A stretch of DNA of 52,860 bases from Thermodesulfobacteriota bacterium (GTDB lineage: Bacteria; Desulfobacterota; UBA8473), in NCBI GenBank assembly GCA_040757775.1, contig JBFLWQ010000001.1, forward strand, positions 190,001 to 242,860. The letters are read 5' to 3'. Both the position numbers and the translations under genes were made by a program. This document shows, in pieces, positions 10,843 through 40,304 of the stretch (its first letter is position 1; every line of letters starts with the position of its first letter). Under the pieces are notes generated by a model that saw nothing but the letters and a program-made list of their open reading frames with translations, was not told the DNA's origin and ran no database searches.

Positions 10843-12054
10843 TTATATTTTATTTCTGGTCACTATCGTCACCACCGAATTTGATATACCCCTTCCGCCT
10901 ACATTGTGCTGTAACCCATAGCCGTTCTTTATCTTCACCTGCCGCTTCTCATTGATGCTGGGATCGCCGGAACCATTCGAGCCCCTAACATCTTCCCTCA
11001 ACTGCCAGAACAACTCTGCTATCTGAGCAATACCTGTAGCACCCAACGGATGACCTTTGGACATGAGACCACCACTGGGATTGACCGCTACCTCACCATC
11101 AAGGTCAGATTTACCCTGCTCAATGAACTTACCCCCTTTACCCTTTTCACAGAAACCCAAATCCTCATAGTTGATTATCTCTGTAATTGAAAAACAGTCA
11201 TGAACCTCTGCCACATCTATATCCTTCGGCTCTATACCAGCCATAGTATATGCCTGCTTCGCCGCCCTGACAGATGCTACAAACTCTGTAAAGTTCTCCT
11301 TCTCATGGACGTAAAATACATCGGTCCCCATCCCAAAACCAGCAACATATATGGGTTTGTCAGTATACTTTTCAGCCAAATCAGCCCTGCATATTATTGC
11401 CGCAGCCGCACCATCTGTCTGAGGACAACAGTCCAAAAGGTTCAATGGACTGCAAACCATGGGTGATTTGAATACATCCTCTATGGTTATCTCATATCTG
11501 TAGTGAGAGTACGGGTCGTATACGCCATTTTTGTGGTTTTTGACAGCTACCATAGCCATCTGTTCTTTGGTGGTACCAAATTCATGCATATGACGCATCG
11601 CCTGGGGAGCAAACATGGTCATTGCCGTCTCGCCCCGCTGAATCACAGGGTGTCCCTGGGCAGCCAGAGAAAGCATCTCTGCTGTTGATTTGTCCCGCAT
11701 CTTCTCTGCCCCAAGTACTAATGCTACGTCATAGACGCCGGAAGCAACTCCAAGACAGGCATTCCTGAATCCATCACTTCCTGTAGGACAACCGTTCTCT
11801 ATATGGCTGCAGGGAACTCCCGCAAGCCCGATATTCCCCACAAGGGATACCCCGGCAATGGTCTGTGTCCCATGGGCACCAGGCCTGCAATCGGCTATCC
11901 ATGCAGCCTGAATGTCTTTAGGATTAAAACCTTTGTCTACGTTGCTGATGGCATTGAGGTAAGCTTCCTCAACCATAATCTCCCAGCCTTTGTCGAACAG
12001 CTCTCCAAACTTTATTATCCCTACTCCAACTATCGCTATCTTATTCCATCCCAT
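10843..12054 (-). CDS. SCP-x/BbsB-type thiolase (partner of DUF35 protein)
   Basis: A 403-residue thiolase-fold enzyme of the sterol-carrier-protein-x branch. The nucleophilic Cys is in IENGCPTGSDGF (Cys89), EVHDCFSITEI follows in the C-terminal half, and [16 protein letters not shown] carries the conserved His. Homologues such as archaeal acetoacetyl-CoA thiolase and BbsB work with a DUF35 OB-fold subunit. Here the gene directly downstream of an HMGCS-like/DUF35 fusion (23 bp gap) fits that partnership. GGAGGT lies 7 bp before the ATG at 12054. The activity is probably thiolytic cleavage or retro-Claisen chemistry on a pathway 3-oxoacyl-CoA; a retro-aldolase role, as in Ltp2, cannot be excluded. 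Confidence 0.88.
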   Translation of the reverse strand: MGWNKIAIVGVGIIKFGELFDKGWEIMVEEAYLNAISNVDKGFNPKDIQAAWIADCRPGAHGTQTIAGVSLVGNIGLAGVPCSHIENGCPTGSDGFRNACLGVASGVYDVALVLGAEKMRDKSTAEMLSLAAQGHPVIQRGETAMTMFAPQAMRHMHEFGTTKEQMAMVAVKNHKNGVYDPYSHYRYEITIEDVFKSPMVCSPLNLLDCCPQTDGAAAAIICRADLAEKYTDKPIYVAGFGMGTDVFYVHEKENFTEFVASVRAAKQAYTMAGIEPKDIDVAEVHDCFSITEIINYEDLGFCEKGKGGKFIEQGKSDLDGEVAVNPSGGLMSKGHPLGATGIAQIAELFWQLREDVRGSNGSGDPSINEKRQVKIKNGYGLQHNVGGRGISNSVVTIVTRNKI

Positions 12055-12077
12055 ATCTAGTACCTCCAGTATTCCAT

Positions 12078-13517
12078 CTATTTTATTCTTATTGGCCTGA
12101 ATACGTTTCCGTACAGGTTTACATTATCCTCGGAAGTCAATCTCCTCAAAACCAATTCTACCGGCATATCAATCTTTACTTCCTCAGGACTCATCTCTGT
12201 ACCCAATGCCCTGTGTCTAACTCCGTCATCAAGATCAGCAATTATTATAGGTAAAGGAGATTCAAAACCTGCTGGCATGTAATAGTTTACACAGAAGGTA
12301 TGTATCTTCCCTTTCCTGCTGAATACTACTTCTTTAAACTTTGTATTGCCGCACCTTATACAAATTTTTCTTTCAGAAGGCGGAAAGTTCACGTAACCAC
12401 AGTTTAAACACCTGGCACCGATCAGTCTGTAAAGCTCGGCACTTGCCCTCCACATAAGAGGAGACAAGGGAGAAACTCCCAAATCCGCAGGTGATTCGTC
12501 TTTTTTCAGAACCCCTTTACTCCTCAGATACCGTGTATAATCCATATAGACCTTGCTAGCCAGATATGATTGATACGATTTACACCTGCCTTTTGCCTTC
12601 TCTATTGGTTCTCTTACGGTCAGGTAGAGGGCATCACTTGTCCCTGAACCATAGGATACAGCAAGAACCTTGTCTCCCGAAATTGCCCTGTCAAAAACCG
12701 ATGACAGGCCTATAAACAAGCAAGCTGCCCCTGTATCTCCTATGTCATTAAATATGGACCCCAGCTTTGTCTGTTCAGACGTTAGCTTTAGCTTTCTGGC
12801 TATTTCCATGGGAAGTCTAGCATCAGGCTGCTGGAATACTATGTGCTGAAACTGGTCGATGGTTAATCCTGTTTTTGATAAAAGCCCCTTAAGGGAATTG
12901 TGTATGTGCTCTGTATAACCATACTGCCGGGTAAACCTCGGCTCATAGTCTCTTACATAGGTGTCTGCCAAGCTCCTCCAGTTATCTCTAAAGTTACCCG
13001 AATAGGTATAAACTTCTTCAAGATCGGCTATAGTATCCTTATCTCCAACTATAAAAGCCCCCGCTCCACCACCGAAGAACATTTCCATATTGCTCCCCGG
13101 TGAAGCCGGACGATAATCCGAAGCTATTACCAGACCATATCTAACCCTGCCAGACTTTACCGCATCAATACATGCCTTCAACGCCGCAATACCTGCCCTC
13201 GGGGTTGTGGTAAAGTCCATTACTTCAATATCCCGTTTTGCCCCCAATGTCTGAGCGATAACACCTATAGACGAATGCTCTATATTGGGAGGGGAATCAG
13301 TACCTAAATATATGGCATCTACCTCTCTGACATCAGCCAGCCCCGAATGTTCAATCGCATTGACAGAAGCCTCTACCGCCATTGTTATAACATCCTCGTT
13401 GTCATTAAGGGCAGCGTTTTCACCCCTCCCCCCGCCACCCCATACCTTTGCTATATCTTCTCTCTTAATGCGACATTTGGGGATATAAACTCCATAACCC
13501 ACTATTCCTACTGCCAT
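12078..13517 (-). CDS. HMG-CoA-synthase-like domain fused to DUF35 OB-fold/zinc-ribbon
   Basis: The 479-residue protein starts at the ATG at 13517 (MAVGIVGYGVYIPKCRIK), chosen because AAAGGAGGT precedes it; an upstream in-frame ATG has no such site. Residues 1 to about 310 are thiolase-fold, closest to archaeal-type HMG-CoA synthase (GIVGYGVYIPK, FFGGGAGAFIVGD, SYGSGTSDALYL). Residues 365 to the end are a DUF35 unit with a zinc ribbon (Cys370, Cys373, Cys386, Cys389) and OB-fold. Oddity: where HMG-CoA synthases have the nucleophilic Cys, this protein reads TTTPRAGIAAL (102-112), and the FH.P histidine motif reads FQQPD (228-232). I infer a scaffold or CoA-channelling partner for the adjacent thiolase rather than a synthase. 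A paralogue with the same losses is at 37242-38699. Confidence 0.85.
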   Translation of the reverse strand: MAVGIVGYGVYIPKCRIKREDIAKVWGGGGRGENAALNDNEDVITMAVEASVNAIEHSGLADVREVDAIYLGTDSPPNIEHSSIGVIAQTLGAKRDIEVMDFTTTPRAGIAALKACIDAVKSGRVRYGLVIASDYRPASPGSNMEMFFGGGAGAFIVGDKDTIADLEEVYTYSGNFRDNWRSLADTYVRDYEPRFTRQYGYTEHIHNSLKGLLSKTGLTIDQFQHIVFQQPDARLPMEIARKLKLTSEQTKLGSIFNDIGDTGAACLFIGLSSVFDRAISGDKVLAVSYGSGTSDALYLTVREPIEKAKGRCKSYQSYLASKVYMDYTRYLRSKGVLKKDESPADLGVSPLSPLMWRASAELYRLIGARCLNCGYVNFPPSERKICIRCGNTKFKEVVFSRKGKIHTFCVNYYMPAGFESPLPIIIADLDDGVRHRALGTEMSPEEVKIDMPVELVLRRLTSEDNVNLYGNVFRPIRIK

Positions 13518-13734
13518 ACTTACCTCCTTTACATTATTCAATAGCTAAACTGCTCTATCGATTAGATCTCAGAATTCCCCCAAAATGCTCAGGTATACTA
13601 TGAGACCATTAAAAACTGTGTTTGTTTTGAAAAATGTCCCTTAGAGCCATTCATAAAACGGATGTTAAAGCAAAAAGGATTTTAATTTTTATCACAACAA
13701 AAAGGATTATTACAAGTATTTTTTACTAGTTTTT

Positions 13735-14811: not shown

Positions 14812-16626
14812 TCATAACTCGTAGCCACTTTCGTACGTTTCTCTAATTAAGTCCCTGTACATTTCCCTAATAGCCGTCCTTCTTACCTTTTGAGTGGCTG
14901 TCAACTCATCTTCATCATGGTCCAGTTCCTTGGTAATCAAATTAAATTTTTTAATTTGTCTATCATGTGCCAACGACCTATTTACCTCCCTTATTTCTTC
15001 TGCAATTAAATCATATACGGCAGAGTTCAAAGAGAGGCTTTTAAAAGTAGTATACGCTATCTTATTGTTCATAGCCCATTTTCCAACATTAGAAAAGTCT
15101 ATCTGGATCAAGGCAATTAGATATTCCATCCCCTCTCCTACCACTACAGCCTCATATATATATGGACTGAATTTCAGTTTGTTCTCTATCTCATCCGGGG
15201 CTATAATTCTTCCGTCAGAGGTAATAAAAACGTCCTGTCTTCTGCCAAGGACGTGGAGATAACCTTCATCGTCAACATAGACAAGATCGTTTGTGCGCAT
15301 CCATCCATCTCCCTTTGCAGATTGGGTAGCCTCCGGGTTTTTATAATAACCGGCAAAAAGGCTTTTCACCTTACACAACAACTCACCCTCCTGGGTAATC
15401 TTCCACTCTACACCGGGAAGAAATTTCCCAGCGGTTCCAATCTTTATATCCCTCCCCTGATGTGTTGCCACTATTCCTATCTCTGTCATACCGTAAAGCT
15501 CTCTTAACTTGATTCCGACAGCATAAAAGAATCGGTTCATCTCAGGGGCTACAGCCGCCCCTCCGGTATAGGCAATTCTCAACCTCAGAAATCCCATCTG
15601 ATCTTTGATTGCCCTAAAGCATGCCAGGTAGGCTACAAAATAGAGAAACCGCCAATACCATCGTACCTTCCTTCGAGCCATTTCCATATCCGTCACCTTA
15701 TATCCCACAGGCATAGCCAACTTGAAGGCTAACCTTTTTAACCATGTAGAATCCTGGACATTTATTTTGACTTCAGAACACAGTTTCTCGTAAATCCTCG
15801 GCACCGCCAGCAGGAGTGTTGGAGCGATTTCGTACATATTCTCCTGGACAGTCTCTGTACTTTCAGAAAAGTTGACGGTACACCCAAAGCACAAAGGGAT
15901 AACAACAGACATGAGCCGCTCAATACCATGATTAAGAGGCAAAAAGGAGAGCACTATGTCTCCTTCTTTAACCGGATTGGCAGCCTGCAATCCATCGATC
16001 CAAGCCAGATAAATCCTGTGGGTAATCATAACACCTTTAGGTACAGAAGTCGTCCCCGAAGTGTAAAGCATCATACACACATCATCGGGTTTTACTTCAT
16101 CAAGACGGTCATAGAAGATGGAAGGACTGGTCTCATATAATCTCTTCCCCATCTCCTCGACCTCGTTAAAACTCATTATAAAAGGGTCATTATAGTCCCT
16201 TAATCCTTTCATATCCATAACGATGCACTTCTTGAGATGGGGCTGTCTTTCCTTAAACTCCATTACCTTATCGGTCTGTTCCTGGTCCTCAGCAACAATA
16301 AACTTCGCTTCACAATGGTCCACGATGTATCTCACACCTTCAGCATAATCAATTGAGTATATACCCACAGAAATACCACCTGCAGATTGAATCCCTAAAT
16401 CTGCGTACAGCCATTCCCGACAATTTTCCCCAATAATACATACATGATCACCTTTTTCCAGACCAAGACTTATAAGCCCCAGGGCAAAATTCCTGACGTG
16501 ATCACCATATTCTTTCCATGTTATTTCATCCCAAACACCAAAATTTTTTTCCCTCAGTGCAACTTTTTTATTTCCATATTTCTCCACTTGGGCATGAAGT
16601 ATATGCGGCAAGGTATCTTTTCTCAT
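14812..16626 (-). CDS. Long-chain acyl-CoA synthetase (AMP-forming)
   Basis: The enzyme activates a carboxylic acid to its CoA thioester through an acyl-adenylate. The 604-residue ANL protein has the P-loop MLYTSGTTSVPKGVMITH (Gly replaced by Ser in the TTGxPKG core), the A5 motif YGMTEIGI and the A7-A8 region GWMRTNDLVYVDDEGYLHVL, with GRRQDVFITSDGRIIAP hinge residues. Length fits the FadD15/long-chain (FACS) subgroup. AGGAGAA precedes the ATG at 16626. Its place between an AMACR/CaiB-family gene and livM suggests it activates the acid imported by this system; chain length cannot be read. Confidence 0.92.
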   Translation of the reverse strand: MRKDTLPHILHAQVEKYGNKKVALREKNFGVWDEITWKEYGDHVRNFALGLISLGLEKGDHVCIIGENCREWLYADLGIQSAGGISVGIYSIDYAEGVRYIVDHCEAKFIVAEDQEQTDKVMEFKERQPHLKKCIVMDMKGLRDYNDPFIMSFNEVEEMGKRLYETSPSIFYDRLDEVKPDDVCMMLYTSGTTSVPKGVMITHRIYLAWIDGLQAANPVKEGDIVLSFLPLNHGIERLMSVVIPLCFGCTVNFSESTETVQENMYEIAPTLLLAVPRIYEKLCSEVKINVQDSTWLKRLAFKLAMPVGYKVTDMEMARRKVRWYWRFLYFVAYLACFRAIKDQMGFLRLRIAYTGGAAVAPEMNRFFYAVGIKLRELYGMTEIGIVATHQGRDIKIGTAGKFLPGVEWKITQEGELLCKVKSLFAGYYKNPEATQSAKGDGWMRTNDLVYVDDEGYLHVLGRRQDVFITSDGRIIAPDEIENKLKFSPYIYEAVVVGEGMEYLIALIQIDFSNVGKWAMNNKIAYTTFKSLSLNSAVYDLIAEEIREVNRSLAHDRQIKKFNLITKELDHDEDELTATQKVRRTAIREMYRDLIRETYESGYEL

Positions 16627-16803: not shown

Positions 16804-17988
16804 TCAAACAATCCCTTTTTCTTCTAAATCTCTTATATCATCTTCAGTATAGCCGAAATTAGCCAATACCTCATTTGTATGTTGGCCCAGCACAGGTGGT
16901 GGCGTTTTAATTTTGCCCGGGGTTTCGGAAAATTTGTACGGGAACCCTATCTGTTTTATCGTACCCTCCACAGGATGGTCTGTCTCAAGAATCATCTCGC
17001 GGGCATTAACCTGGGGATCAGCAACAACCTCTTCCAGCGAATTCACGGGGCTTGCGCAGAAGTCTTTACCTCCCATTATCTCCAACCATTCTTCTCTCGA
17101 CTTAGTCAAGAAAATACTACGCATCTCGGCCATTATCTCATCCCGCTTTTTCCCTGTGGCAAACTCAAAATCGACAAAATCCTCTCTGCCTATTGCCTTA
17201 CACAAGTTTATCCAGAACTTCTTCTCCAGATTTCCGAGGAAGAGGTATTTACCATCTCTCGTTTCAAAGCAATTATACCACAAAGCATGACCGGTAATCT
17301 CCAGAGAACCACTACTTTCCCCTATTCCATACTCATACCCTGCGAAGTGATGGGCAAGGGGAATCGTATTATACGAGACCATACAGTCCGTCATGGAAAC
17401 ATCTATGTGCTGCCCTTTGCCCGTTCTATCCCTTGCCATCAGGCCCGCAAGGATAGCATAGGCTGAAAATATCCCGATGGACATATCGGCAATAGGTATC
17501 CCAGGGATAACGGGAGCACCCGTATGTCGTCCAGTAACACCAAGTATCCCGGCTACCGCGATGTAGTTTGCATCGTGTCCGGCCTTGTCTTTATACGGAC
17601 CGGTCTGCCCATAGCCTGTTGATGAACAGTAGACCAGCCTCGGGTTTATCTCCTTTAAATCTTTATAACCAAGTCCAAAACCATCCATAATTCCAGGCCT
17701 AAAACTCTCAAATAAGACATCATATTTTTTGACCAACCGGTATACAATTTCTCTTCCCTTTTCTGTATTGAAGTTCAATGTCATACTCTTTTTATTACGA
17801 TTGGCAAGGAGGAAAATATAACCCTCCTTCTTGTTCTTGGGAGGTAGCCACCTCATATAATCACCCTTCTCGGGCTCTTCAACTTTGAGGACTTCCGCGC
17901 CTAAATCCGCCAGCATCATGGTGCAATATTCAAAGGGCAAAAGCCTCGAAAAATCCAGAACTTTTATACCATCCAATGCGCCTGCCAT
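16804..17988 (-). CDS. CaiB/BaiF family protein, alpha-methylacyl-CoA racemase-like / CoA-transferase
   Basis: A 394-residue class III CoA-transferase-fold protein. The N-terminal motif IKVLDFSRLLPFEYCTMMLADLGAEVLKVE and the central AGHDANYIAVAGILG (Asp139) are present. The GHDxNY context is that of alpha-methylacyl-CoA racemases, where His and Asp swap the alpha-proton, while length and ETRDGKYLFLGN fit the wider CoA-transferase family. Racemisation of an alpha-methyl-branched acyl-CoA or CoA transfer to the imported acid are both possible. It lies between the binding-protein gene and the acyl-CoA synthetase gene in the catabolic run. Confidence 0.85.
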   Translation of the reverse strand: MAGALDGIKVLDFSRLLPFEYCTMMLADLGAEVLKVEEPEKGDYMRWLPPKNKKEGYIFLLANRNKKSMTLNFNTEKGREIVYRLVKKYDVLFESFRPGIMDGFGLGYKDLKEINPRLVYCSSTGYGQTGPYKDKAGHDANYIAVAGILGVTGRHTGAPVIPGIPIADMSIGIFSAYAILAGLMARDRTGKGQHIDVSMTDCMVSYNTIPLAHHFAGYEYGIGESSGSLEITGHALWYNCFETRDGKYLFLGNLEKKFWINLCKAIGREDFVDFEFATGKKRDEIMAEMRSIFLTKSREEWLEIMGGKDFCASPVNSLEEVVADPQVNAREMILETDHPVEGTIKQIGFPYKFSETPGKIKTPPPVLGQHTNEVLANFGYTEDDIRDLEEKGIV

Positions 17989-18135: not shown

Positions 18136-19326
18136 TTAATCGAGGGGTTTCTTCCAACTTGAGATGGGAACAAAAAATCCTTTCTCTACATCGGCCTTAT
18201 AGATCTTGAAGAATTCATTTGGTTTGTGATTTGCAGAGCTATAGGTAAGGGGGCCTGAGAGGTCTTTCGTGCTGAAGTTTTTCATAGATTCAATAGCATT
18301 TACCAACCCCTCGTTAGTAAGATTGTTTTTTGCCCTTTTTATCCCCTCAGCAAGTATCATAGACAAGACCCATCCATCAGTATATGCCCTGTCCTTCCAG
18401 GTTGCACCAGAATCATATTTCTTAGTCACGCTTCTGAGTTCCTTAATCCCGGGGTTCTCCTCGTCCCAACCACTGAAACAATGAACTCCCCAGTAATTCC
18501 TGGCTGCTTCTTTGGCTGCTTTGATAAGTTGGTCCTGAGTTGCCCAGTAGGAACCAAAATAGTTAGGATTAAATCCCAATTTCTTTCCCGCCGTAACCAG
18601 TGTTATCGCCGCTGTGCTAATGTTATGAATGATTACACAGTTGACCTTTTCTCTCTTTAATTGTAATACCTGTGATGTAGCATCGAGGGCTCCCATACTC
18701 AGGAATATACCGGTTACCTCCACCCCATATTTTTTACCTCGTTCCTGGGCTACTTTGAGGCCTGGTTTAAATGCCTCGGCATCCGCAAGAACAATTCCCA
18801 GCCTCAAATCCTTAGGGTTTAACTCTTTGACTATATAGTCAACTAATAGCCTTATACCGTCTTCATATATAGGAGCATTAATAAATGTATAACGTTGAAA
18901 AGGATCAACAAGCTGGCCGGACTTGCTCAACGGTATTCTAGGTACCTTTTCTTCTGCTACCAGAGGAGTCAGGGCAATATCTGCTGCACTGGCACCAGAC
19001 CCGAGAATGGCAAAGACTTTGTCTCTATACATAAATTTTTTAAACGCAGCAAAGTTTTGTGGTATGCTGTATTTTGTGTCCTCAATTATAAGGTCTATCT
19101 TTCTTCCATCGATTCCTCCCCTATCATTTACCCATCTGAAAAATATCTTATACCCCTCCAGGGATGGCCCCTGTATGGAAGCGGTCACTCCTGTTATGTC
19201 AGTTAAGACACCGATCTTTATTGTGTCTTTGCTCACTCCCCTGCTGGTTTCGGCTGAGAGTGGGTATGCCCCAAAAAGAATAAAACCCACAACCAAAATC
19301 AATACAATATTTTTTTTCTTTCTCAT
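18136..19326 (-). CDS. Branched-chain amino acid-type ABC transporter substrate-binding protein (LivK family)
   Basis: A 396-residue periplasmic binding protein. The ATG at 19326 (MRKKKNIVLILVV) is preferred because AAAGGAGA precedes it and it begins a classic signal peptide ending near LSA at about residue 25. The mature part begins GVSKDTIKIGVLTDITG, the hallmark of Peripla_BP_6/LivK proteins, and contains GRKIDLIIEDTKYS. It is the first gene after the acetyl-CoA-synthase-like gene (86-bp gap). Its ligand is unknown; in such clusters the ligand is often an organic acid. Two paralogues lie at 26272 and 27615. Confidence 0.92.
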   Translation of the reverse strand: MRKKKNIVLILVVGFILFGAYPLSAETSRGVSKDTIKIGVLTDITGVTASIQGPSLEGYKIFFRWVNDRGGIDGRKIDLIIEDTKYSIPQNFAAFKKFMYRDKVFAILGSGASAADIALTPLVAEEKVPRIPLSKSGQLVDPFQRYTFINAPIYEDGIRLLVDYIVKELNPKDLRLGIVLADAEAFKPGLKVAQERGKKYGVEVTGIFLSMGALDATSQVLQLKREKVNCVIIHNISTAAITLVTAGKKLGFNPNYFGSYWATQDQLIKAAKEAARNYWGVHCFSGWDEENPGIKELRSVTKKYDSGATWKDRAYTDGWVLSMILAEGIKRAKNNLTNEGLVNAIESMKNFSTKDLSGPLTYSSANHKPNEFFKIYKADVEKGFFVPISSWKKPLD

Positions 19327-19412
19327 GCCTGTTCTCCTTTCGTAGCTGAGTACAATAAGTTTTGTAACTGGTTGTTTTGACTTGGCTTTATCACCCCCTC
19401 TCAAAATCTTTT

Positions 19413-20774
19413 CTATTTTTTATCTTCCGGCCAATCTTCAGTAGGAGCTGGTAAAACAACCGGCACCGGCTTTCCATTTTTCCAAAACTTCTCTACTATT
19501 GGATGCTTTTTAGCAGTAAGGAATTGTATTATATCCTTTGGGGAGATGGCATCATCTTCTGTAGCTATCTTTTCATAAACTTCTTCCGGGATTGCATCTG
19601 CGATCTGCTTCTTTAAGTCCTGATGAATCCACACAATTCTATCCCATCCTCCATCACCCATCTGAAACTTTTTAGATCTTACTGTTCCAATAGAGGCACC
19701 CATATATCCATGTCCCTGAACACCTCCGCACGCTTCCGCAGCCAATTTTGAAAAAGTCAGCCCTTCGCCCAGCGGGGTTATTCCCTTATAAGTCCTGTCA
19801 ACCAAGCCTATCCCATCAACCTGAGGGATATAAAACAGCAACAATTCAAATCACCCTCACGAGGTCTGTGGGTATTTTATAGTGCTATATAAGTTTACCC
19901 TCTTTATCGTTTTATTGCTCTTGGCAAAGATATACTCATTAACCCCTTCATATTGACCATATGCTTCATTGATTTTTTTCCCTTTTGGAATTCTCACCAG
20001 GTAACCAAAAGGATCGATCTCCAACCCCACCTCTGCACCTTTATAGTTGATGATACCACAGAACGGCATCCGCTCCGGGGCTATCATACAGACATGATTT
20101 GGGGCAAAACCCTGGCAAAGGGTACAGCCAAAGAACTCATCAACATCATCATCCTCAATTCCAACCATCCTGCTCTCCTGGGCTTCCCATTTATGCCTGA
20201 TGTCATTATCCACTATTTCTTTAATAAATTCTGCACCACCAACCTCCGGACTCCCTATTATTACTCTAGCTTCGATGGCCTCAATTATGGGAAATGCAGA
20301 CTTTGCAAGGCCAAAGAGCAGACTCAAAAGTTCTGGCCAGGTAATTCGATCTGCGACATTTTTCCCGACACGAAACCATTGATTCGATCTGGCATTTACA
20401 GCCATAATCCCTTCCATTTGTTCCAGAAAATCACCTATTTGACGGAGAAAGAATTCATCATAATCTACCCTCATCTCCTTACCGTACATCTTTATAATCC
20501 ATCCAAAGGGAAGGGAAGTTCCTGGTTCAACTTCATTGATGTCGGGGCCAACAATCTCAACTCTTCCATCCTGTACTTCATCAGGATCCGTCATTACTTC
20601 GATTGACTCAAAAATGCTTCCTGACCATTTGGGCCCACCATACTCAACATGATAATCATCCTTTCTGATTCTCTCACCTTGAAACCGAGGACCATACCCG
20701 ATCCTGATATTTGCGAGAGCTTCTTCAATATCTTCACTAATCTGACAAACTCGTCCTTCAGGCCATTTAATCAT
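19413..20774 (-). CDS. cdhC: Acetyl-CoA synthase beta subunit homologue (CdhC/AcsB-like) with two in-frame TGA codons, predicted Sec-Gly-Sec
   Basis: Acetyl-CoA synthase joins a methyl group, CO and CoA at the Ni-Ni-[4Fe-4S] A-cluster. The predicted 453-residue protein has the short archaeal CdhC length, lacking the extra N-terminal domain of Moorella AcsB. A-cluster cysteines are Cys217, Cys220, Cys229 and Cys239 (FFGCTLCQGFAPNHVCMIAP...CG). The gate Phe is at 223. The frame then meets TGA at 19857-19859 and again at 19851-19853, flanked by PQTS and FELLLFYIPQVDGIG. In AcsB this place reads TSCGCFE, whose two Cys bind the distal Ni. Intervals 3-9-10-67-2 equal those of Moorella Cys506/509/518/528/595/597. 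Sequence after the TGAs stays homologous to the CdhC C-terminus (KFQMGDGGWDRIVW) to TAG at 19413. Start: ATG 20774, with AAGGAGG 7 bp upstream. Selenocysteine insertion is the best reading; truncation into two genes is unlikely. Confidence 0.9.
19822..19859 (-). promoter_or_regulatory. Candidate SECIS-like mRNA hairpin at the TGA pair
   Basis: In the mRNA the first UGA and following GGG (UGAGGG) pair perfectly with CCCUCA 32 nt downstream. Inside this 6-bp foot there is an imperfect inner stem with unpaired U residues and an about 7-nt apical loop (UGUUGCU) that starts UG. The 38-nt size, the UGA in the foot and about 13 nt from UGA to the loop resemble bacterial SECIS elements. I folded it by eye; no energy was calculated. 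The inner stem is weak, so this remains a candidate. Confidence 0.45.
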
Positions 20775-20930
20775 CCTCAAACCTCCTTTTAACCGCTTAA
20801 CCTCATCAATAAGGCTTTAGTCTAGAATATAACTAATACTTTTAAAACACAAACCACTCTAAGAATCTTCAGGCTTATAGCAATCTTAATAAATTTTTGA
20901 ATTGAAAATCTCCCTTGTCTCTCTGCACAA

Positions 20931-21166: not shown

Positions 21167-21910
21167 ATGGCGAAAAGAGAAGAAATTCTGGAAGCAGCAA
21201 CCATGCTTTTTTATGAAAAGGGATACCAATCTACATCCATGAATGACCTGGCAAACGAGATGGGTCTGAGCAAATCCGCTATCTACCACTATTTCAGGAG
21301 TAAAGAAGAAATTTTAGTGGAAATTTATGAAAAAACCATTACAGATGCTACCAATGAACTTTCCAAACTGGCCACTTCTGATAAGTCTACCATTGACAAA
21401 TTACGGGAGGCTATTATAAACCAAATAGAACATATTATGATTGAAAGACAATCCATGTTAAAAATATTTTTTCAGGAAGAAGAACAGCTTCCTGACAAGT
21501 TTCATAAATCTATAAAAAAGAGAAAAAGAGAATACAATAGACTGATAGAAGGCATTTTTACCGAAGGTATAAGTGAGGGCATATTTAAAAAAGGTGATCC
21601 TCAACTTTTCGTAAATGCCTTTCTTGGTATGTGTTTGTGGGTGTACAGGTGGTATAAGCCGAATAGCAAATACAAACCTGAGGATATTTCAAAATACTTT
21701 GTGAAACTAATAGAAGAAGGTTGTCTTACTCCTGATTTTAAAAGACTAACCAAAGAAACAGTCACTACGCCTTCAAATGGTGAGGATATTTCTGGAGGTG
21801 ATTTTTCAGTTGAAAGTGTAATAAAAAGAATGCGTTATCATACTTCGATGATTGAAATATTAAACAGCCAATTAAACACTCTCTTAGAGGAGAAAATAAT
21901 ACAACACTAA
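21167..21910 (+). CDS. TetR/AcrR family transcriptional regulator
   Basis: A 247-residue regulator. The N-terminal DNA-binding domain is clear (KREEILEAATMLFYEKGYQS, helix-turn-helix MNDLANEMGLSKSAIYHYF, SKEEIL, residues 3-50). The ligand domain resembles the TetR_C subgroup common next to fatty-acid and CoA-degradation genes, with a C-terminal extension of about 35 residues predicted helical. It is divergent from the ACS-like gene and 85 bp upstream of the CODH-like gene, so it probably controls both. An acyl-CoA effector is likely by analogy, not shown. Confidence 0.92.
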   Translation: MAKREEILEAATMLFYEKGYQSTSMNDLANEMGLSKSAIYHYFRSKEEILVEIYEKTITDATNELSKLATSDKSTIDKLREAIINQIEHIMIERQSMLKIFFQEEEQLPDKFHKSIKKRKREYNRLIEGIFTEGISEGIFKKGDPQLFVNAFLGMCLWVYRWYKPNSKYKPEDISKYFVKLIEEGCLTPDFKRLTKETVTTPSNGEDISGGDFSVESVIKRMRYHTSMIEILNSQLNTLLEEKIIQH

Positions 21911-21995: not shown

Positions 21996-24488
21996 ATGTC
22001 AAAAAACAAGAAGTACCAGGTAGCTAAAGTTGGACATAAGGAGATCGACATAACAAAAACAGTAAGAGACATAAGAGGAGTGGAGGAAATAGTAAAAGAA
22101 TCGATTGAAACTACCTGGTCAGAAAATCTGGTAAACCAGATGAAAGTATGGCTGACTCCATTTCCAAACCCAACAGACATGGCTGAGTGGGATAGAATAT
22201 TATTGGAGAGGTATCCACCACTATATACAGTTATTGAAAAGAAATGTAACAACTGCTATATGGGAACGTGTGAGCTGGATAAGGGAAAAGGGGCATGTGG
22301 TTTGGACTTGGAAACTTATCAGGCAAAGTTATCACTGCAAACATCATGCAGAGGGCTTTCTATACAGCTCTCCTCAACGAGATACCTATTAAACCATTGT
22401 ATAAAAGAGTTCGGCGAAAGAAAAAAGATAAAGTGGGGCAAAAATGTCGCTTACGGGATGATGAACGTAAATGCAATATGCGGTTTTACACCCAGAACTT
22501 TGAAAGAAGCAAACAGGGTAGTAACTTATTTAGAGGGTCAACTCTCAAGCCTACTATCCTCTGCCAGTGTTGGATATGAGGGAAATACAACAGACCTGGA
22601 ATCCAAGGCTCTCCACGCTGGGTCACTTTTGTTGGTGGCATTGGATGTTAATGAGTTTTTGAAACATGCGTTTTTCAACTTCTGCTGGGGGCCAGACCGA
22701 GAACTGACGGAACTCCCAACGTTCCCTGACCCCACCACGCATACAGGCATAGGAACGGTAGACACAAGCAAATCAGTTATATTATTTTTGGGTTTTGACT
22801 TCTTACCGGCATGGAATGCTGTGAACTATATTAAAGCCAACGGTATGGAAGAGACTATAGAGGTTACTGGCATCGGGTCTGTTGGGCATGATCTCATACG
22901 GTTTTACGATAAGGCAAAAATCCTTACCTCCCCTGTCAAGACCAGTAAGGTATTAAGGATGGGGATACCTGATGTGATAGTAGTTGGTGACGCGTGTTGT
23001 AAGACAAATGTGCTGGAAGATGCAAAGAGGACGGATACAAAGGTTATCGCCACCAGTTTCAATCAGAATATGGGCTTAGTGAACAGGGTTGAAGAAAATG
23101 TGGATGATATTGTAAATGAGCTTTTGAGTGGCTCTCAGGCTGTATTGGTGACGGATCCAAAAAAGGCCGGTGAAGTAGCCGTCAAACTGGCTGGGAAAGT
23201 TAAATCCCTGAGGAAAAAAAGCTACCTCTTATCTAGCAAAGAAATAAAAAAATGGGCATCCAAATGTGATGGGTGTGATGCCTGCTTTAGAGTATGTCCA
23301 AATAGCCTTCATATAAGCGCTGCGTTAAAGGCAGCCTCGAGTGACAATACTGGAAGGCTATGTGAACTACATGATAAAAGCATTTACTGTGGCAAATGTG
23401 AAGAAGTTTGTCCCCAAAATATACCGATAATAGACATGATTATTGCTGCGGCACAGAAGGAAATAAGAGAGGATAAAGCTGTGATGAAGGCAGGAAGGGG
23501 GACTTTCGGCAATCTAGAAATAAGAGACTGGGCTATCACGATGTTTTCTTGTCCGGGTTCAGTAGTCATAATGGGATGCAATAACTATAAAGGGTCAGAT
23601 ATGGACATAGCTTATATTGCATCTGAATTAATATCAAATACCTACTCAGTTACAGTCGCCGGTTGCGTGGCATCTGACATTGCCAGGTATAAAGATAAAA
23701 AGACAGGGAAGTTTTTATATGAACTCTACCCGACGCTTTTCAACCCTAAGTGTCTGGTAAATACAGGTGGCTGTTCAGGTCAGTCCCATTTCACAACCGC
23801 TTTTTATAAGGTCGGCTATATGGGATTCAGGTCCCCCTACAGGGCTACCTACGCAATGCAATCAGATTTTACTACCAGATTTCCAAACGTACTCGTTATC
23901 TGGGGACCGGCATCAGACCTGATGTATACCCTGGCATCGGGTTATGCAAGAGCCGGTATCCCGGTAATCCTCGGACCCGGTGGTTTCAACTTTAAGCGAT
24001 ACCTGATGGGAAATAAGTATGATAGGAGCAAGTGGTGGGCACTCCATGGAAATACAGGGAAAAAGGGAGAAGTTGACCCATTGCCTGAACACATGATAGT
24101 ACCTGTAGAAACGAAGGAAGAAGTCCTTGCACTTATTCCAAAGCTATGCTTCCTATTTCAGGATATGGAAACAGCCAGACAAACAAAATTCGATTTTTAC
24201 CTTGATTATTATAACAATGCTTTTGGAGTTTTGCCAGATGACTGGCACCTATATGTAAGAAGGGAAGTTGAGATTCCATTGATAAAAAAGGTAAAAATCT
24301 TGCGCTTGCTCGAAGAAGAACACGGCTGGGAAATAGACAGAAAGAAAGGCAGGGTCATAAGGGCAAGGCACAGAGATGGCAGGTTGATCCCCATGGAAAA
24401 GTTCCTTGAAGAATACGGATTTCCTTCTGGTCAATACATAACCTTCATACCTCGACTGGTATATAAAGAAAGGGCAGATAGGGAATAA
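21996..24488 (+). CDS. cdhA: Carbon monoxide dehydrogenase alpha subunit homologue (archaeal CdhA type) with altered C-cluster site
   Basis: CdhA oxidises CO or reduces CO2 at a Ni-Fe-S C-cluster and supplies CO to acetyl-CoA synthase. The 830-residue protein has the B/D-cluster cysteines (CNNCYMGTC at 84-92, Cys101) and two ferredoxin-type motifs ([12 protein letters not shown] at 424-435, CGKCEEVCP at 465-473) as in archaeal CdhA. Retained C-cluster candidates are Cys334, Cys528 (IMGCNNY), Cys557 (VAGCVASD), Cys593 (TGGC) and His598. The usual GHN histidine reads LGFDF (Phe267), the GLCC cysteine reads GIGS (292-295), and the AAHxxH relay after the B-cluster reads [11 protein letters not shown]. 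The comparison is from memory of the family. GGGAGG precedes the ATG. It may be a CODH paralogue with a different substrate or a structural partner of the ACS-like protein. Confidence 0.85.
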
Positions 24489-29316: not shown

Positions 29317-30996
29317 CTATGCCCACCCGAATACTTCTTTTAAAACACCTTGCAACTCTCCAAGGGTAGCCTCTGCTCTAGCTGCATCAATAACCGCAGG
29401 CATTAATTCTCCGCTATGCTCAGGCCATGTTTCGTCTACCATCACTGCCACTTCTTTAAGCCTCTTCAATGCCCCTTCCAATTTTTTGTTGTCTCTTTTC
29501 TCTTTGTATTCTTTAAGCCTTCGTATGGCCTCTTCCTCTATCTCCGGATATTTAAAGACCGGGACTTTCTGTTCTTTCTCGGTTACATATTTGTTCAACC
29601 CTACAATTGTCTTCTGCCCACTGGCTACTTTCTCCCGCCACTGATAGGCAGATTTGGTAATTTCATCTTTAAACCAGCCCGACTCCCAACACTTCCTGAA
29701 TCCTCCCTTTTCATCTATCAGTTTTATAATCCCGAAGACCTCCTCTTCCACTTTGCCGGTCAGCCATTCTACATAGTAGGAACCAGCCAGTGGATCTGAA
29801 ACGTTGGGTATGTTTGTCTCATGGAGGATAATCTGCTGGGTCCTCAAGGCAAGGATGTGGGATTCTTCGGTAGGGGTAGACAATGCCTCCAGGTATGAAT
29901 TCGTCTGTATGGAATTTGTACCTGAAAGTACGGCTCCCAATGTCTGAAGTGTTGTCCTTATAACGTTGTTTAAAGGCTGCTGGGCAGTTAAGGTAACTCC
30001 GGATGTCTGGCTATGCATCCTCAGGTGCAATGACCTTGGATTTTTGCAGCCAAATCTCTCTTTATTAACTTTTGCCCAAACTCTTCTCATTGCCCTGACT
30101 TTGGCAACCTCCTCAAAAAAATCACCTGCCTGGGCTATCTGAAAACCAAACCTGGGTAAAAACTCATCTGGATCAAGTCCTGCCCTTATACATTCTTCGG
30201 TAAGAGCTATCCCCGCTGATATGGCATAACCCGCCTCCTGGACGGCATTGCCTCCTGATTCTTCCACGTAATAGGACGTGATATTGGTATGATTCCACTG
30301 GGGCATATTCCTGCAACAGTATTTTATAAACTCAGCCATAAGCTTAAAGGCACTTTTGGGAGGAAAGGCAACGTTCCCGAGAAAAGCAAAAGACCAGAGC
30401 CAGTTCATGCTGTTGCCATAAACTTTAGTTATGGGAATCCCTCTCTTTTCAAGATAAGCAATGTACATTGCTATCTCTACCAGGGTAGCACGGCAGATGT
30501 TCTGTACAACTGATACTTTGGTAAGGTCTATATCATGAAAGAGACGGTCAAAATCATCCTGGGTTGCAAAATGACATCCTGCAACCCCCACTCTCCCTGT
30601 TACCTCCGGGTCATCAGGATCGTATCCTGCTTTTGCTACCAGATCAAACACAAGATTGTAGGCATCTTTACCAAAATACCCCCTCGCCCCCATCTCTTTT
30701 AAAAGATCCATCCTCTCACGAGTTTGCTCTGGCAAACCATAGCCTAAAACCAGGTTGTTAAACCAGGGTGTAAACTGATACTGTACAGGGTATATGCCCC
30801 TTGTATAAGGATAAATACCCGGCATCTCAGGACGAAAACCAATCTCTTCTAGATCCTTTGCCGTATACACAGATTTTACAGGAATATCCGAATCTGTAAC
30901 AGCTTTAAATTCTTTATCTTTGTAAAACCTGTCATATAGCTCTTTCCACTCTCTCTTTAACCTCTCCTCCTCTTCTAGAAACTCCTTCTCAAACAT
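29317..30996 (-). CDS. B12-dependent acyl-CoA mutase large subunit, divergent from methylmalonyl-CoA mutase
   Basis: A 559-residue TIM-barrel mutase subunit that would isomerise an acyl-CoA carbon skeleton with adenosylcobalamin. Family blocks are YPYTRGIYPVQYQF (63-76), NLVFDLVAKAGYDPDDP, HSQTSGVTLTAQQPLNNVIR and NIPNVSDPLAGSYYVE. The methylmalonyl-CoA loop RPWTxRQYAGF reads TPWFNNLVLGYG (76-87), so the Arg82, Arg87 and Tyr89 equivalents (P. shermanii numbering) are lost. The Arg207 region is also unlike MCM. It is probably a mutase for a different, possibly monocarboxylic, acyl-CoA. Start: ATG 30996 (TTG 30999 is closer to the ideal spacing from AAAGGAGGG). It follows tetR by 56 bp. Confidence 0.88.
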   Translation of the reverse strand: MFEKEFLEEEERLKREWKELYDRFYKDKEFKAVTDSDIPVKSVYTAKDLEEIGFRPEMPGIYPYTRGIYPVQYQFTPWFNNLVLGYGLPEQTRERMDLLKEMGARGYFGKDAYNLVFDLVAKAGYDPDDPEVTGRVGVAGCHFATQDDFDRLFHDIDLTKVSVVQNICRATLVEIAMYIAYLEKRGIPITKVYGNSMNWLWSFAFLGNVAFPPKSAFKLMAEFIKYCCRNMPQWNHTNITSYYVEESGGNAVQEAGYAISAGIALTEECIRAGLDPDEFLPRFGFQIAQAGDFFEEVAKVRAMRRVWAKVNKERFGCKNPRSLHLRMHSQTSGVTLTAQQPLNNVIRTTLQTLGAVLSGTNSIQTNSYLEALSTPTEESHILALRTQQIILHETNIPNVSDPLAGSYYVEWLTGKVEEEVFGIIKLIDEKGGFRKCWESGWFKDEITKSAYQWREKVASGQKTIVGLNKYVTEKEQKVPVFKYPEIEEEAIRRLKEYKEKRDNKKLEGALKRLKEVAVMVDETWPEHSGELMPAVIDAARAEATLGELQGVLKEVFGWA

Positions 30997-31052
30997 CAAT
31001 CGGTACCCTCCTTTCTATATTTAATAAAATTTTGGCATTCCTCCTTAAGAGC

Positions 31053-36038: not shown

Positions 36039-37229
36039 CTATCTCGGCTCCTTACCAAAAATGTTTACAAGCACGGTAGTCCCCAGACCGCCAAGATTAT
36101 GGGTACAGCCTATTTGAGCATCTTTTACCTGTCTTTCTCCTGCCTCTCCTCTTAAATGCCACCAGAGTTCACAGATCTGGGCAACACCTGTAGCACCTAT
36201 AGGATGCCCCTTTGCCTTAAGTCCTCCACTCGCGTTACATGGCTTGCTGCCACTAAGCATAGGGTGACCCTCTTCTATCCATTTGCCGCCTTCGCCTTTT
36301 TTACAGAAGCCCATATCCTCATAGGTAATTAGCTCTGTAATGGTAAAACAGTCATGGAGTTCAGCCAAATCAACATCATCAGGCCCAATGCCTGCCATCT
36401 TATAGGCTTCTTTGGCAGCGGCCTGTGTTGCCGGAAATTCTATGAAGTTCTTTTTCCACGGTTGGTACATAGGATCAGTTGCCAGCCCTGTCCCCATGAA
36501 ATACAGTGGCTGATCCGTATACTCTCTTGCTCTATCCTGCCTTGTTAGGAGAATTGCTGCTGCTCCGTCGGTTGTAGGACAGGCATCAAACAGCCCCAAA
36601 GGCCATGAGAGAAGGGGAGCATTCAATGCCTGCTCCACAGTTATCTCAAAATTGAAATGGGTATAAGGGTCTAAAGTACCGTTGTGATGGTTCTTTACAG
36701 CTATCATGGCAAGGTGGTCTCTCTTCGTACCAAATTTATCCATATGGGCTGTGGCAAGGGAGCCAAACCTTTGAGGGGCTGATGCCCCCCTGGGGTGCCA
36801 CCATGCATGATACATGACACCGGTTTGGGCGATAAGGGAATCTCTCGATGGTATGTCCCTCATCTTTTCCGCACCGACTACCAAAACCAGATCGTACACC
36901 CCGGATGCTACAGCAAAGGCAGCATTTCTTACAGCATCACTGCCCGTACAGCACGCATTCTCCATTCTACTTACAGGCCTTGGAAAGAACCTTATGGGTT
37001 CTGCCAGTCCTGCTCCCGTAAGTATCTCTCTCCGAAATCCGGTTCCGGGGATACATGTTCCCAACCACCCCGCTTCTATATCTTTCTCATCTATTCCTTT
37101 ATCAACGCTTTTTAAACATGCCCTGTAGGCACCTACTATCATATCCTCATAGCTCTGATCAAACAGTTCCCCGAATTTAATCATTCCAGCGCCAACAACG
37201 GCTACTGGCAATCCTTTTTGCTTCGCCAT
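36039..37229 (-). CDS. SCP-x/BbsB-type thiolase (second copy)
   Basis: A 396-residue thiolase of the same branch as the one at 10843-12054. The nucleophile lies in MENACCTGSDAVRNA (Cys93, followed by another Cys). ELHDCFTITELITYEDMGFC and [25 protein letters not shown] are present. AGGAGG precedes the ATG. It is the last gene of the right-hand minus cluster, 12 bp after an HMGCS-like/DUF35 fusion gene, repeating the pair seen at 10843-13517. The two copies have clearly diverged, so different 3-oxoacyl-CoA substrates are likely. Confidence 0.88.
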   Translation of the reverse strand: MAKQKGLPVAVVGAGMIKFGELFDQSYEDMIVGAYRACLKSVDKGIDEKDIEAGWLGTCIPGTGFRREILTGAGLAEPIRFFPRPVSRMENACCTGSDAVRNAAFAVASGVYDLVLVVGAEKMRDIPSRDSLIAQTGVMYHAWWHPRGASAPQRFGSLATAHMDKFGTKRDHLAMIAVKNHHNGTLDPYTHFNFEITVEQALNAPLLSWPLGLFDACPTTDGAAAILLTRQDRAREYTDQPLYFMGTGLATDPMYQPWKKNFIEFPATQAAAKEAYKMAGIGPDDVDLAELHDCFTITELITYEDMGFCKKGEGGKWIEEGHPMLSGSKPCNASGGLKAKGHPIGATGVAQICELWWHLRGEAGERQVKDAQIGCTHNLGGLGTTVLVNIFGKEPR

Positions 37230-37241
37230 AAAAAAGTCCTC

Positions 37242-38716: not shown

Positions 38717-39121
38717 CTATTTCTTTCGGACATTTTCATTAATATACTTTATGATATCATCCATAGAGGCACCAGAAATAAAAACCTCATCAACCCCCAT
38801 TTCTTTAAGTTTTGGGATATCCTGTCTGGGAAATACCCCGCCTAAAATAACCAGTACATCTGCGATATTTTTCTCCCTCAAAAGGTTTATAATCTTGGGT
38901 GTGTGGGTAAGCTGCTCCCCGGAAAGAAAACTCAATCCTATGACATCTGCATCCTCCTCTATCGCTGTCCTGACAACCTTTTCCGGAGTTTGAAACGCCC
39001 CCATAAAGATCACTTCCATACCTGCATCCCTGAGTGATCTGGTTACCACTTTTATCCCCCTATCATGGCCATCCAAACTAACCTTTGCCATTACAACCCT
39101 TATCTTTCTCTCAGGTTCCAT
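38717..39121 (-). CDS. B12-binding small subunit of an acyl-CoA mutase (second copy)
   Basis: A 134-residue protein starting MEPERKIRVVMAKVSLDGHD. The ATG at 39121 is chosen because GGGAAGG precedes it; a longer frame would overlap the upstream dehydrogenase gene. SLDGHDRGIKVVTRSL holds the cobalt-ligating DxHxxG His, and EDADVIGLSFLSGEQL and VLVILGGVFPRQD complete the fold. Its large subunit is not adjacent. The likely partner is at 45941-47608, seven genes upstream in the same direction. Confidence 0.92.
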   Translation of the reverse strand: MEPERKIRVVMAKVSLDGHDRGIKVVTRSLRDAGMEVIFMGAFQTPEKVVRTAIEEDADVIGLSFLSGEQLTHTPKIINLLREKNIADVLVILGGVFPRQDIPKLKEMGVDEVFISGASMDDIIKYINENVRKK

Positions 39122-39158
39122 ACCTTCCCTTTCTCTATTGCCAATTATCGATTTATAT

Positions 39159-40304
39159 TTACCCAAGCAAATTCCTGGAAACAACTACCCTCTGTATCTG
39201 GTTTGATCCATCATATATCTGTACCGACTTTGCGTCCCGCATCCTCCTCTCCACTGGATACTCCTTTGTATACCCATAGCCACCCATAATTTGAACAGCA
39301 TCTGTGGTCACCTTCATTCCCACATCGGCGGCATAGCACTTGGACATACAAACCAGGGTCTCTATATTCTTAAAACTCTCCCCATCTGTATCCATAGCAT
39401 ATGCCGTTCTGTATATAAGGGATCTGGCGCTTTCTATCAATATCGCCATGTCAGCAAGCATAAACTGGACAGCCTGAAAACTGGCTATTGGTTTCCCAAA
39501 TTGAAACCTCTGTTTTGCGTACTCCACCACATAATCCAGGGCACCCTGGGCATTACCCAGTGCCGTACATCCTGCTCCCCATACACGCATCATGTTTGCA
39601 ATATTGAGCAGTAAGCCCCAACCCTTATTAACCTCTCCAATGAGATTGTCTTTAGGCACCCTTGCATCTTCAAAAATCAGTTCAACAGTACCGGTACCAG
39701 CAAACCCCATCTTTTGTTCTTTCTTGCCTACCCGAAAACCGGGCGTGTTTTTATCAACCATAATCACGCTGATGCCCTTTGTCTTTTCTCCTCCGGTTCT
39801 CACAAAAACCAGATGGAGTTCTGCGACCTCACCGGTAGTTATAAATGCCTTTGAACCGTTTATAATGTAATGGTCTCCATCCAAGCTAGCCTTTGTTTGC
39901 AGAGAACCGGCATCAGAACCATGGTTTGGTTCTGTCAGGGCAAAAGAGCATGCCTGCGTTCCCTGTTCAAGCCTTTTAAAAAACCTAACCTGTTGAGATT
40001 CCGTAGCCGCCTTCAATAGTATCTGTAAGGCAGCACCTGTGGTAACCAACATTTGGGGTGCAGAGGCATAAGCCTTTGCAAGCTCCTCTACAATAAGACA
40101 GAGGGTTGTGGTATTGGCATCAATACCCCCATACTTTTCAGGGAGAACCATCTTAAAGAGGTTGTTCTCTTTATAGACCTCTACATAGTCCATAGGAAAT
40201 TTATCGGTTTCATCTATCTCAGCCGCTCGCGGCGCAATCTTTTCCTTTGCGATCTTCCTCACCATATCACGGATCATCTTCTGCTCTTCAGTCAGTTGAA
40301 TCAT
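39159..40304 (-). CDS. Acyl-CoA dehydrogenase with Asp in place of the catalytic Glu
   Basis: A 381-residue SCAD-type flavoprotein: MIQLTEEQKMIRDMVRKIAK, FALTEPNHGSDAGSLQTKAS, QIMGGYGYTKEYPVERRMRDA. The catalytic segment, normally YEGTxQIQR, reads IYDGSNQIQRVVVSRNLLG, so the base position is Asp365. Helix G (NIANMMRVWGAGC) has no alternative Glu. It belongs to a set of three similar enzymes here (with 40442 and 42820) sharing the change, so it is a conserved trait, not damage. A shifted proton-abstraction geometry, as known for cyclic acyl-CoA dehydrogenases lacking the Glu, is one possible explanation. Confidence 0.9.
   Translation of the reverse strand: MIQLTEEQKMIRDMVRKIAKEKIAPRAAEIDETDKFPMDYVEVYKENNLFKMVLPEKYGGIDANTTTLCLIVEELAKAYASAPQMLVTTGAALQILLKAATESQQVRFFKRLEQGTQACSFALTEPNHGSDAGSLQTKASLDGDHYIINGSKAFITTGEVAELHLVFVRTGGEKTKGISVIMVDKNTPGFRVGKKEQKMGFAGTGTVELIFEDARVPKDNLIGEVNKGWGLLLNIANMMRVWGAGCTALGNAQGALDYVVEYAKQRFQFGKPIASFQAVQFMLADMAILIESARSLIYRTAYAMDTDGESFKNIETLVCMSKCYAADVGMKVTTDAVQIMGGYGYTKEYPVERRMRDAKSVQIYDGSNQIQRVVVSRNLLG

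Follow-up and report, generated by a model that had tools for sequence, protein, structure and literature searches.

The CdhA-like protein encoded at 21996-24488 of the window (the whole stretch of DNA analysed, 52,860 nucleotides from a Thermodesulfobacteriota bacterium) belongs to a conserved family, present in three phyla and not decaying, in which the site for CO/CO2 has been lost and a four-cysteine site retained. In many loci, the gene of this variant, called CdhA* here, stands with that of a CdhC in which every A-cluster ligand position is present (CdhC*), and the pair suggests a nickel enzyme that has yet to be characterised. The usual view of CODH and ACS is of a pair, one making CO and the other using it. 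An ACS half kept with all its ligand positions next to a partner devoid of CO chemistry, in bacteria as well as archaea, would mean that the A-cluster is used otherwise.

Active site of CdhA*

By profile search, CdhA* scored 614.5 bits against TIGR00314, under the equivalog cut-off of 781.3, and residues 52-789 could be aligned with solved CdhA chains. The AlphaFold model (pTM 0.82) has the CdhA fold, with Z 47.1 and rmsd 2.4 over 752 residues against 8riu, and Z 43.3 against 3cf4. Like the archaeal CdhA of M. barkeri (3cf4) and Ethanoperedens (8riu), with which it shares the fold over about 750 residues and 31-34% identity, CdhA* has the cysteines of the B- and E-clusters and four of those of the C-cluster. 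It differs from them in lacking the pendant-Fe ligands, the acid-base Lys and the D-cluster, and in an incomplete F-cluster. Three genes of CdhA* type are present in the window's genome. A tblastn search of 72,556 plasmid records gave no CdhA* match, and a plasmid origin was rejected on this ground. The gene and its relevant residues are the following:

21996..24488, + strand: CdhA* (830 aa, intact ORF), a CdhA-like subunit lacking the pendant-Fe ligands
22344..22376, + strand: residues 117-127, in place of the histidine relay and acid-base His
22794..22796, + strand: Phe267 codon, in place of the pendant-Fe His (CODH-II His261)
22869..22880, + strand: GIGS 292-295, in place of G-I/L-C-C (pendant-Fe Cys)
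22995..22997, + strand: Cys334, C-cluster cysteine, retained in 49/49 variants
23379..23381, + strand: Ser462, in place of the first F-cluster Cys (second cluster, ferredoxin domain)
23577..23579, + strand: Cys528, C-cluster cysteine, retained in 48/48 readable variants
23664..23666, + strand: Cys557, C-cluster cysteine, retained in 48/48 readable variants
23772..23774, + strand: Cys593, C-cluster cysteine at the Ni ligand position, retained in 48/48 readable variants
23919..23921, + strand: Leu642, in place of the catalytic Lys of SQK

The residue numbering of CODH-II and Moorella follows PMC9311411 in part. Phe267 aligns with the His of the GHN motif, and Gly294-Ser295 with the Cys-Cys pair of the pendant-iron site. 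The sequence-only reading of this DNA had assigned Phe267 to the GHN His and GIGS 292-295 to the GLCC region, and alignment with solved CdhA, MAFFT and the fold all agree with it. A misalignment of the ligands was rejected, since HMMER, MAFFT and the fold were concordant. The histidine relay, read there as replaced, is indeed so, with Gln124, Ser127 and Tyr130 at the AHxxH positions, and the C-cluster cysteines 334, 528, 557 and 593 and His598, said to remain, are all present.

Other parts of that reading had to be corrected. It held that the B/D cluster and ferredoxin motifs remain, which is right for the B-cluster, whose CX2CX4CX8C motif is whole (84, 87, 92, 101), and wrong for the other two. 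In the CxxCC motif of the D-cluster, the partner positions are Glu81 and Asn85 and the sole remaining Cys is common with the B-cluster, so the D-cluster is absent in CdhA*; the F-cluster has Ser462 for its first Cys. It is thus not just the pendant-Fe ligands that were lost, as had been supposed: the acid-base His and Lys, the D-cluster and one F-cluster Cys are gone as well.

The variant family and its earlier description

From 86 CdhA-type sequences collected, 49 score as variants, near-copies included, and 37 as others; one variant row is fragmentary and does not include the C-terminal sites, and another is gapped at 286-297. His at 267 is found in 0 of 49 variants vs 35 of 37 others, and Cys-Cys at 294-295 in 0 of 48 readable variants vs 35 of 37 others, residue 295 being S, A, P, Q or N in the variants. 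Relatives keeping both ligands were looked for and none was found among the 49. All four C-cluster cysteines are retained in every readable variant, and most variants conserve those of the E- and B-clusters too. Lys occupies the 642 position in 35 of the 37 others and in 2 of the 49 variants. Variation is greater at position 124 (acid-base), which is still His in 14/49 variants, and at position 462, with Ser in 19/49 and Cys in 30.

For the tree, 45 rows were used with the trait columns removed, and 27 variants were kept after dropping five fragmentary or awkward rows and applying an 85% identity cut. All 27 lie on one side of a single branch with SH-aLRT 100, as obtained by a quick method with some long branches and an unsure inner order. 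The dN/dS ratio was 0.07-0.14 in seven variant pairs; two pairs with the window copy itself were excluded for saturated dS. Decay of CdhA* was rejected on the dN/dS values and the conserved residues. The single branch, the three phyla, the four retained cysteines and these ratios support the sequence-only view that cluster and chemistry have changed and that the gene is not in decay.

Named carriers of the variant are Deltaproteobacteria MAGs, Methanophagales and Chloroflexi. In samples from three phyla, it was found in at least 11 of 395, at least 2 of 400 and at least 19 of 392 genomes, counts that are lower bounds because samples were drawn and at most two candidates were scored per genome.

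Further departures from ordinary CdhA were also observed. The remaining two of the 37 others represent a third, fully degenerate CdhA type (L240:1411-3714 and L242:1426-3729, genomes G481 and G529, Chloroflexi phylum) in which all C-cluster cysteines and the His are lost, and the same loci also hold a CGC-type CdhC. Loci L253-L256 and L260-L263 (Methanophagales phylum) have a variant CdhA without even the N-terminal B-cluster cysteines. At L175:1501-4323 and L176:1501-4275 (G082 and G047), the variant CdhA is extended at its N-terminus by about 110 residues with many CxxC pairs, while the B-cluster cysteines are missing.

The ligand loss itself is already in print. According to the main text of Inoue et al. 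2019 (PMC6344411), clade-A groups A-4 and A-6 have incomplete C-clusters, occur in bacteria only and lie in gene clusters with ACS subunits. As given there, A-4 has His replaced by Asp, Cys1 by Pro, and Gln and Arg as acid-base residues, and A-6 has His replaced by Asn, Cys1 by Ser and Lys by Leu, with an incomplete F-cluster and the acid-base His kept. In line with both groups as described in that text, CdhA* has no D-cluster, the C-cluster His and Cys1 are replaced, Cys2-5 are kept and Lys is replaced. Ser295, Leu642, Glu81/Asn85 and Ser462 correspond to the A-6 traits listed there, while the window copy differs from A-6 in Phe267 (not Asn) and Gln124 (not the acid-base His); a paralogue (L003) has Asn and His at these two positions. 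The Chloroflexi and G184 proteins fit A-4, and the window's family nearly fits A-6. Overall, the sequence-only interpretation is supported in part: the changed site and the absence of decay stand, but the loss is wider than it stated, and the pattern had already been tabulated as A-4/A-6 by Inoue et al. 2019.

What is added here beyond the main text of PMC6344411 is the archaeal members, the single common branch, the CdhC partner with two TGA codons and the cassette. The words 'selenocysteine', 'formylmethanofuran' and 'MoxR' are absent from that main text; its figures and supplements may show the A-4/A-6 neighbours. The group is easily missed because at least one recent CODH survey (PMC13240472) filters such sequences out.

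The partner CdhC* and the gene neighbourhoods

The CdhC gene next to CdhA* in the window is read on the opposite strand:

19413..20780, - strand: CdhC-like acetyl-CoA synthase beta subunit (CdhC*), reading through two TGA
19857..19859, - strand: first of two in-frame TGA codons (residue 308), at a Ni-bridging Cys position
19851..19853, - strand: second of these TGA codons (residue 310), at the other Ni-bridging Cys position
19822..19859, - strand: SECIS-like hairpin from the first TGA (UGAGGG...CCCUCA), in all six copies with two TGA

Residues 308 and 310 correspond to the cysteine pair of the CGC motif (Moorella Cys595 and Cys597), which bridges the nickel ions of the A-cluster. Copies with TGA at both positions are referred to as UGU. 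With TGA read as Cys, CdhC* scores 423.4 with NF003379 (cut-off 372) and 391.6 with TIGR00316 (cut-off 355.95), and all four cysteines of the A-cluster [4Fe-4S] are present. It thus resembles acetyl-CoA synthase beta subunits (CdhC/AcsB) in passing the family cut-offs and in retaining the [4Fe-4S] ligands, but differs from them in that both Ni-bridging cysteine codons are TGA and in the SECIS-like hairpin. Ordinary gene calling splits the gene in two.

Both TGA fall at exactly the same codons in 5/5 window-family copies that cover the site (the G004 copy is without the N-terminal 58 residues), and a sixth UGU CdhC was found in G184, from another family, at 45% protein identity. The co-occurrence of CdhA* with a TGA-containing CdhC, put forward in the sequence-only reading, is therefore seen in five of five carriers of the family and in a second lineage. 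CdhC* was not recovered in three of the eight window-family genomes (G001, G002 and G007; 73-82% complete), and with two or three in each family genome, CdhA* paralogues outnumber CdhC*.

The outer stem of the hairpin (5 or 6 pairs) starts at the first UGA in 6/6 UGU copies. Five or more of these pairs occur in 0 of 41 distinct CGC homologues, two of which have four. The stem requires a Gln codon, and Gln is found in the six UGU proteins vs Glu or Asp in CGC copies of the same cassette. SelB and tRNA-Sec are encoded in the window's genome; tRNA-Sec is present in all 6 UGU genomes and in 3 of 10 other carriers, which have no UGU copy. A general use of TGA as a sense codon was rejected, since 8 of 35 window genes end at TGA. 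By gene-level selenoprotein criteria (UGA at a conserved Cys, SECIS-like hairpin, SelB and tRNA-Sec), CdhC* is predicted to be a selenoprotein.

Reviews of prokaryotic selenoproteins (PMC9312934, PMC13188914) list in their main texts a Sec-containing CdhE/HgcA-like protein, which has UGA plus SECIS in common with CdhC* but belongs to another subunit family; CdhC, CODH and carbon monoxide are absent from these main texts. As far as our searches of openly available main texts reach, the UGU CdhC partner is new.

The partner CdhC of the Chloroflexi, Methanophagales, G082 and G047 is CGC, and CdhC* is nearest to CGC relatives from the same cassette, not to ordinary CdhC. An ordinary CdhC is also found in both Chloroflexi and in two of three Methanophagales genomes searched, and none was recovered in G398. 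Elsewhere in the window's genome lies an ordinary AcsA-AcsB-AcsC locus, whose A-cluster is of the CGC type. The predicted model of CdhC* (pLDDT 66.9) was too poor for use.

The neighbouring genes of the pair in the window include:

14812..16626, - strand: AMP-binding acyl-CoA ligase, context
16804..17988, - strand: CoA-transferase family III, context
18136..19404, - strand: Peripla_BP_6 substrate-binding protein, adjoining CdhC*
21167..21910, + strand: TetR-family regulator, upstream of CdhA*
29317..30999, - strand: methylmalonyl-CoA mutase family large subunit, context
38717..39184, - strand: B12-binding domain protein, context

The TetR-CdhA* and CdhC*-binding-protein units are divergent and not a single operon. 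The surrounding genes encode thiolase, HMG-CoA-synthase-like, CoA-transferase, acyl-CoA dehydrogenase and B12-mutase proteins, and a pair made up of a thiolase and an HMG-CoA-synthase-like/DUF35 fusion occurs twice, at 10843-13541 and 36039-38699. The window itself showed no gene for CdhB, CooC or Fwd, and the only MoxR-VWA match of its genome lies about 174 kb off on the same contig.

Elsewhere, CdhA* occurs in a recurring cassette, some of whose gene names were assigned by reading translations. The order in CSMAG_2901 and CSMAG_2994 is CdhA*-CdhB-CdhC*(UGU)-two unknown proteins-MoxR-CooC-like-MoxR/VWA. G184 has a compact block of MoxR, CooC-like, CdhC*(UGU), MoxR/VWA, CdhA*, CdhB, an unknown protein, FwdB and FwdD, where FwdB scores 329.1 bits with TIGR03129 (cut-off 327.8), the FwdD match is weak and CdhB is also weak, at 28.5 bits and under its cut-off. 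FwdA- and FwdB-like genes stand beside CdhA* in G004 and G082, with the G004 FwdB over the cut-off and the G082 FwdB and both FwdA matches under. In Chloroflexi G396, G397 and G737, B12-mutase subunits are encoded a few genes upstream (G396 by reading). At the archaeal locus of G944 (L276:9747-16551), CdhA*-CdhB-CdhC* stands together with genes for an unknown protein, a thiolase and a DUF35-like protein, an arrangement reminiscent of the thiolase and HMG-CoA-synthase-like genes found in the window. A relative of the cassette's MoxR/VWA was present in 16 of 20 carriers tested, and was not found in the other four, all archaeal (G395, G398, G399 and G813).

Proposed role, alternatives and further loci

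CdhA* is very probably not a CODH, and it is likely to work with CdhC*. Our best explanation, to which we give about even odds, is that it transfers electrons, without CODH activity, as a subunit of an enzyme acting on acyl-CoA at an A-cluster. CdhA* would be the large subunit of a CODH/ACS-like complex whose CODH reaction has been lost. Its four cysteines may hold a cubane, either [4Fe-4S] or Ni3Fe without the exo iron, and with its E- and B-cluster cysteines kept it could act as an electron wire and scaffold. Catalysis would take place at the CdhC A-cluster, bridged in the window's family by two selenolates if Sec is inserted as predicted, and the Ni site of CdhC* may be matured by CooC and MoxR/VWA. 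The compounds acted on would be acyl-CoA of branched-acid or B12-mutase metabolism, the mutase-pathway acyl groups being among the weakest steps; A-cluster chemistry on acyl-CoA without CO from CdhA* is about as probable as its opposite. More tentatively, the one-carbon unit might come through the cassette's Fwd-like formate/formyl enzymes and not as C-cluster CO, a formate route that we regard as doubtful.

The separate ordinary AcsA-AcsB-AcsC locus, available for CO chemistry, counts in favour of the non-CODH reading of CdhA*. Counted against the best explanation are the absence of CdhB, CooC and Fwd from the window, the divergent arrangement of the pair, the three of eight genomes from which CdhC* was not recovered, the surplus CdhA* paralogues, the four archaeal carriers without MoxR-VWA and the His124 of 14 variants.

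One alternative is that CdhA* has remained a CODH in which Asn/Asp/Phe or residues nearby stand in for the pendant-Fe ligands. The fold and the four cluster cysteines, including the Ni-ligand position, are kept and the cassette has a CooC-like ATPase, but Phe267 is unable to bind iron, the Cys pair has been lost along with the acid-base Lys and the relay, and CODH-II variants at C295 are deficient in Ni and show no activity (PMC9311411), which leaves it highly improbable. The same paper describes CooS-V of C. hydrogenoformans, in which Cys295 is replaced by Glu on a CODH scaffold that bears an Fe/S/O cluster and has no CO activity. As judged from the model, CdhA* shares the CODH scaffold with altered active-site ligands known from CooS-V and hybrid cluster proteins, and it might likewise bear a hybrid-type Fe/S/O cluster and act in redox stress or N-O reduction. 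However, Glu at 295 or the His at 267, both present in CooS-V, occurs in 0/49 variants, and many loci place CdhA* with CdhC* and acyl-CoA genes, so we consider a hybrid cluster improbable.

A further alternative is that CdhA* is retained only as an assembly scaffold or pseudo-enzyme, CdhC* making acetyl-CoA with CO from the cell's ordinary AcsA. The ordinary Acs locus and the A-cluster ligand positions of CdhC* agree with this, whereas no CdhD/E-like corrinoid methyl donor was seen beside CdhA*/CdhC* in the loci read (by reading), the adjoining Fwd, mutase and MoxR-VWA genes suggest another task, and the E- and B-cluster cysteines conserved in most variants would be needless for a pure scaffold; we hold it to be unlikely. 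Lastly, the gene pair could be decaying and the TGAs of CdhC plain nonsense mutations, as its division by ordinary gene calling and the failure to find UGU copies in some family genomes might suggest. Against this, six of six copies have exactly two TGA at the same codons, the hairpin is conserved, Gln in place of Glu/Asp at the stem codon is confined to the UGU copies of the cassette, CdhA* shows low dN/dS and TGA is a stop elsewhere in the window; the chance of decay is accordingly very slight.

At its fullest, the acyl-CoA reading would be of a nickel-selenium acyl-CoA synthase/lyase, with a Sec-Gly-Sec-bridged A-cluster Ni, a CODH half rebuilt for electron transfer and formate exchange through Fwd-like subunits instead of CO, feeding B12-dependent acyl-CoA mutases. 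As a whole this is speculative, and we think it rather unlikely to hold in every part. If true, it would constitute a (de)carbonylation route independent of CODH chemistry, and two selenolates on the Ni site would provide a natural test of the role of the bridging sulfurs in acetyl-CoA synthase.

Some further loci were noted. Another CdhA-variant paralogue of the window's genome, at L034:3369-19380 (G000, contig C28), has within 10 kb three B12-mutase large-subunit-like genes and small subunits (all mutases by reading), as well as a 2-hydroxyacyl-CoA dehydratase-like protein. At L037:104-11999 (G002), tandem Peripla_BP_6-like substrate-binding proteins surround a CdhA-variant and CdhB (by reading). 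A second MoxR/VWA type, about 60% identical to that of the cassette, lies at L311:11351-13702 (G000, contig C1, 35357-37546) beside CoA-transferase, acyl-CoA dehydrogenase and thiolase genes, and is present in 8/8 family genomes.
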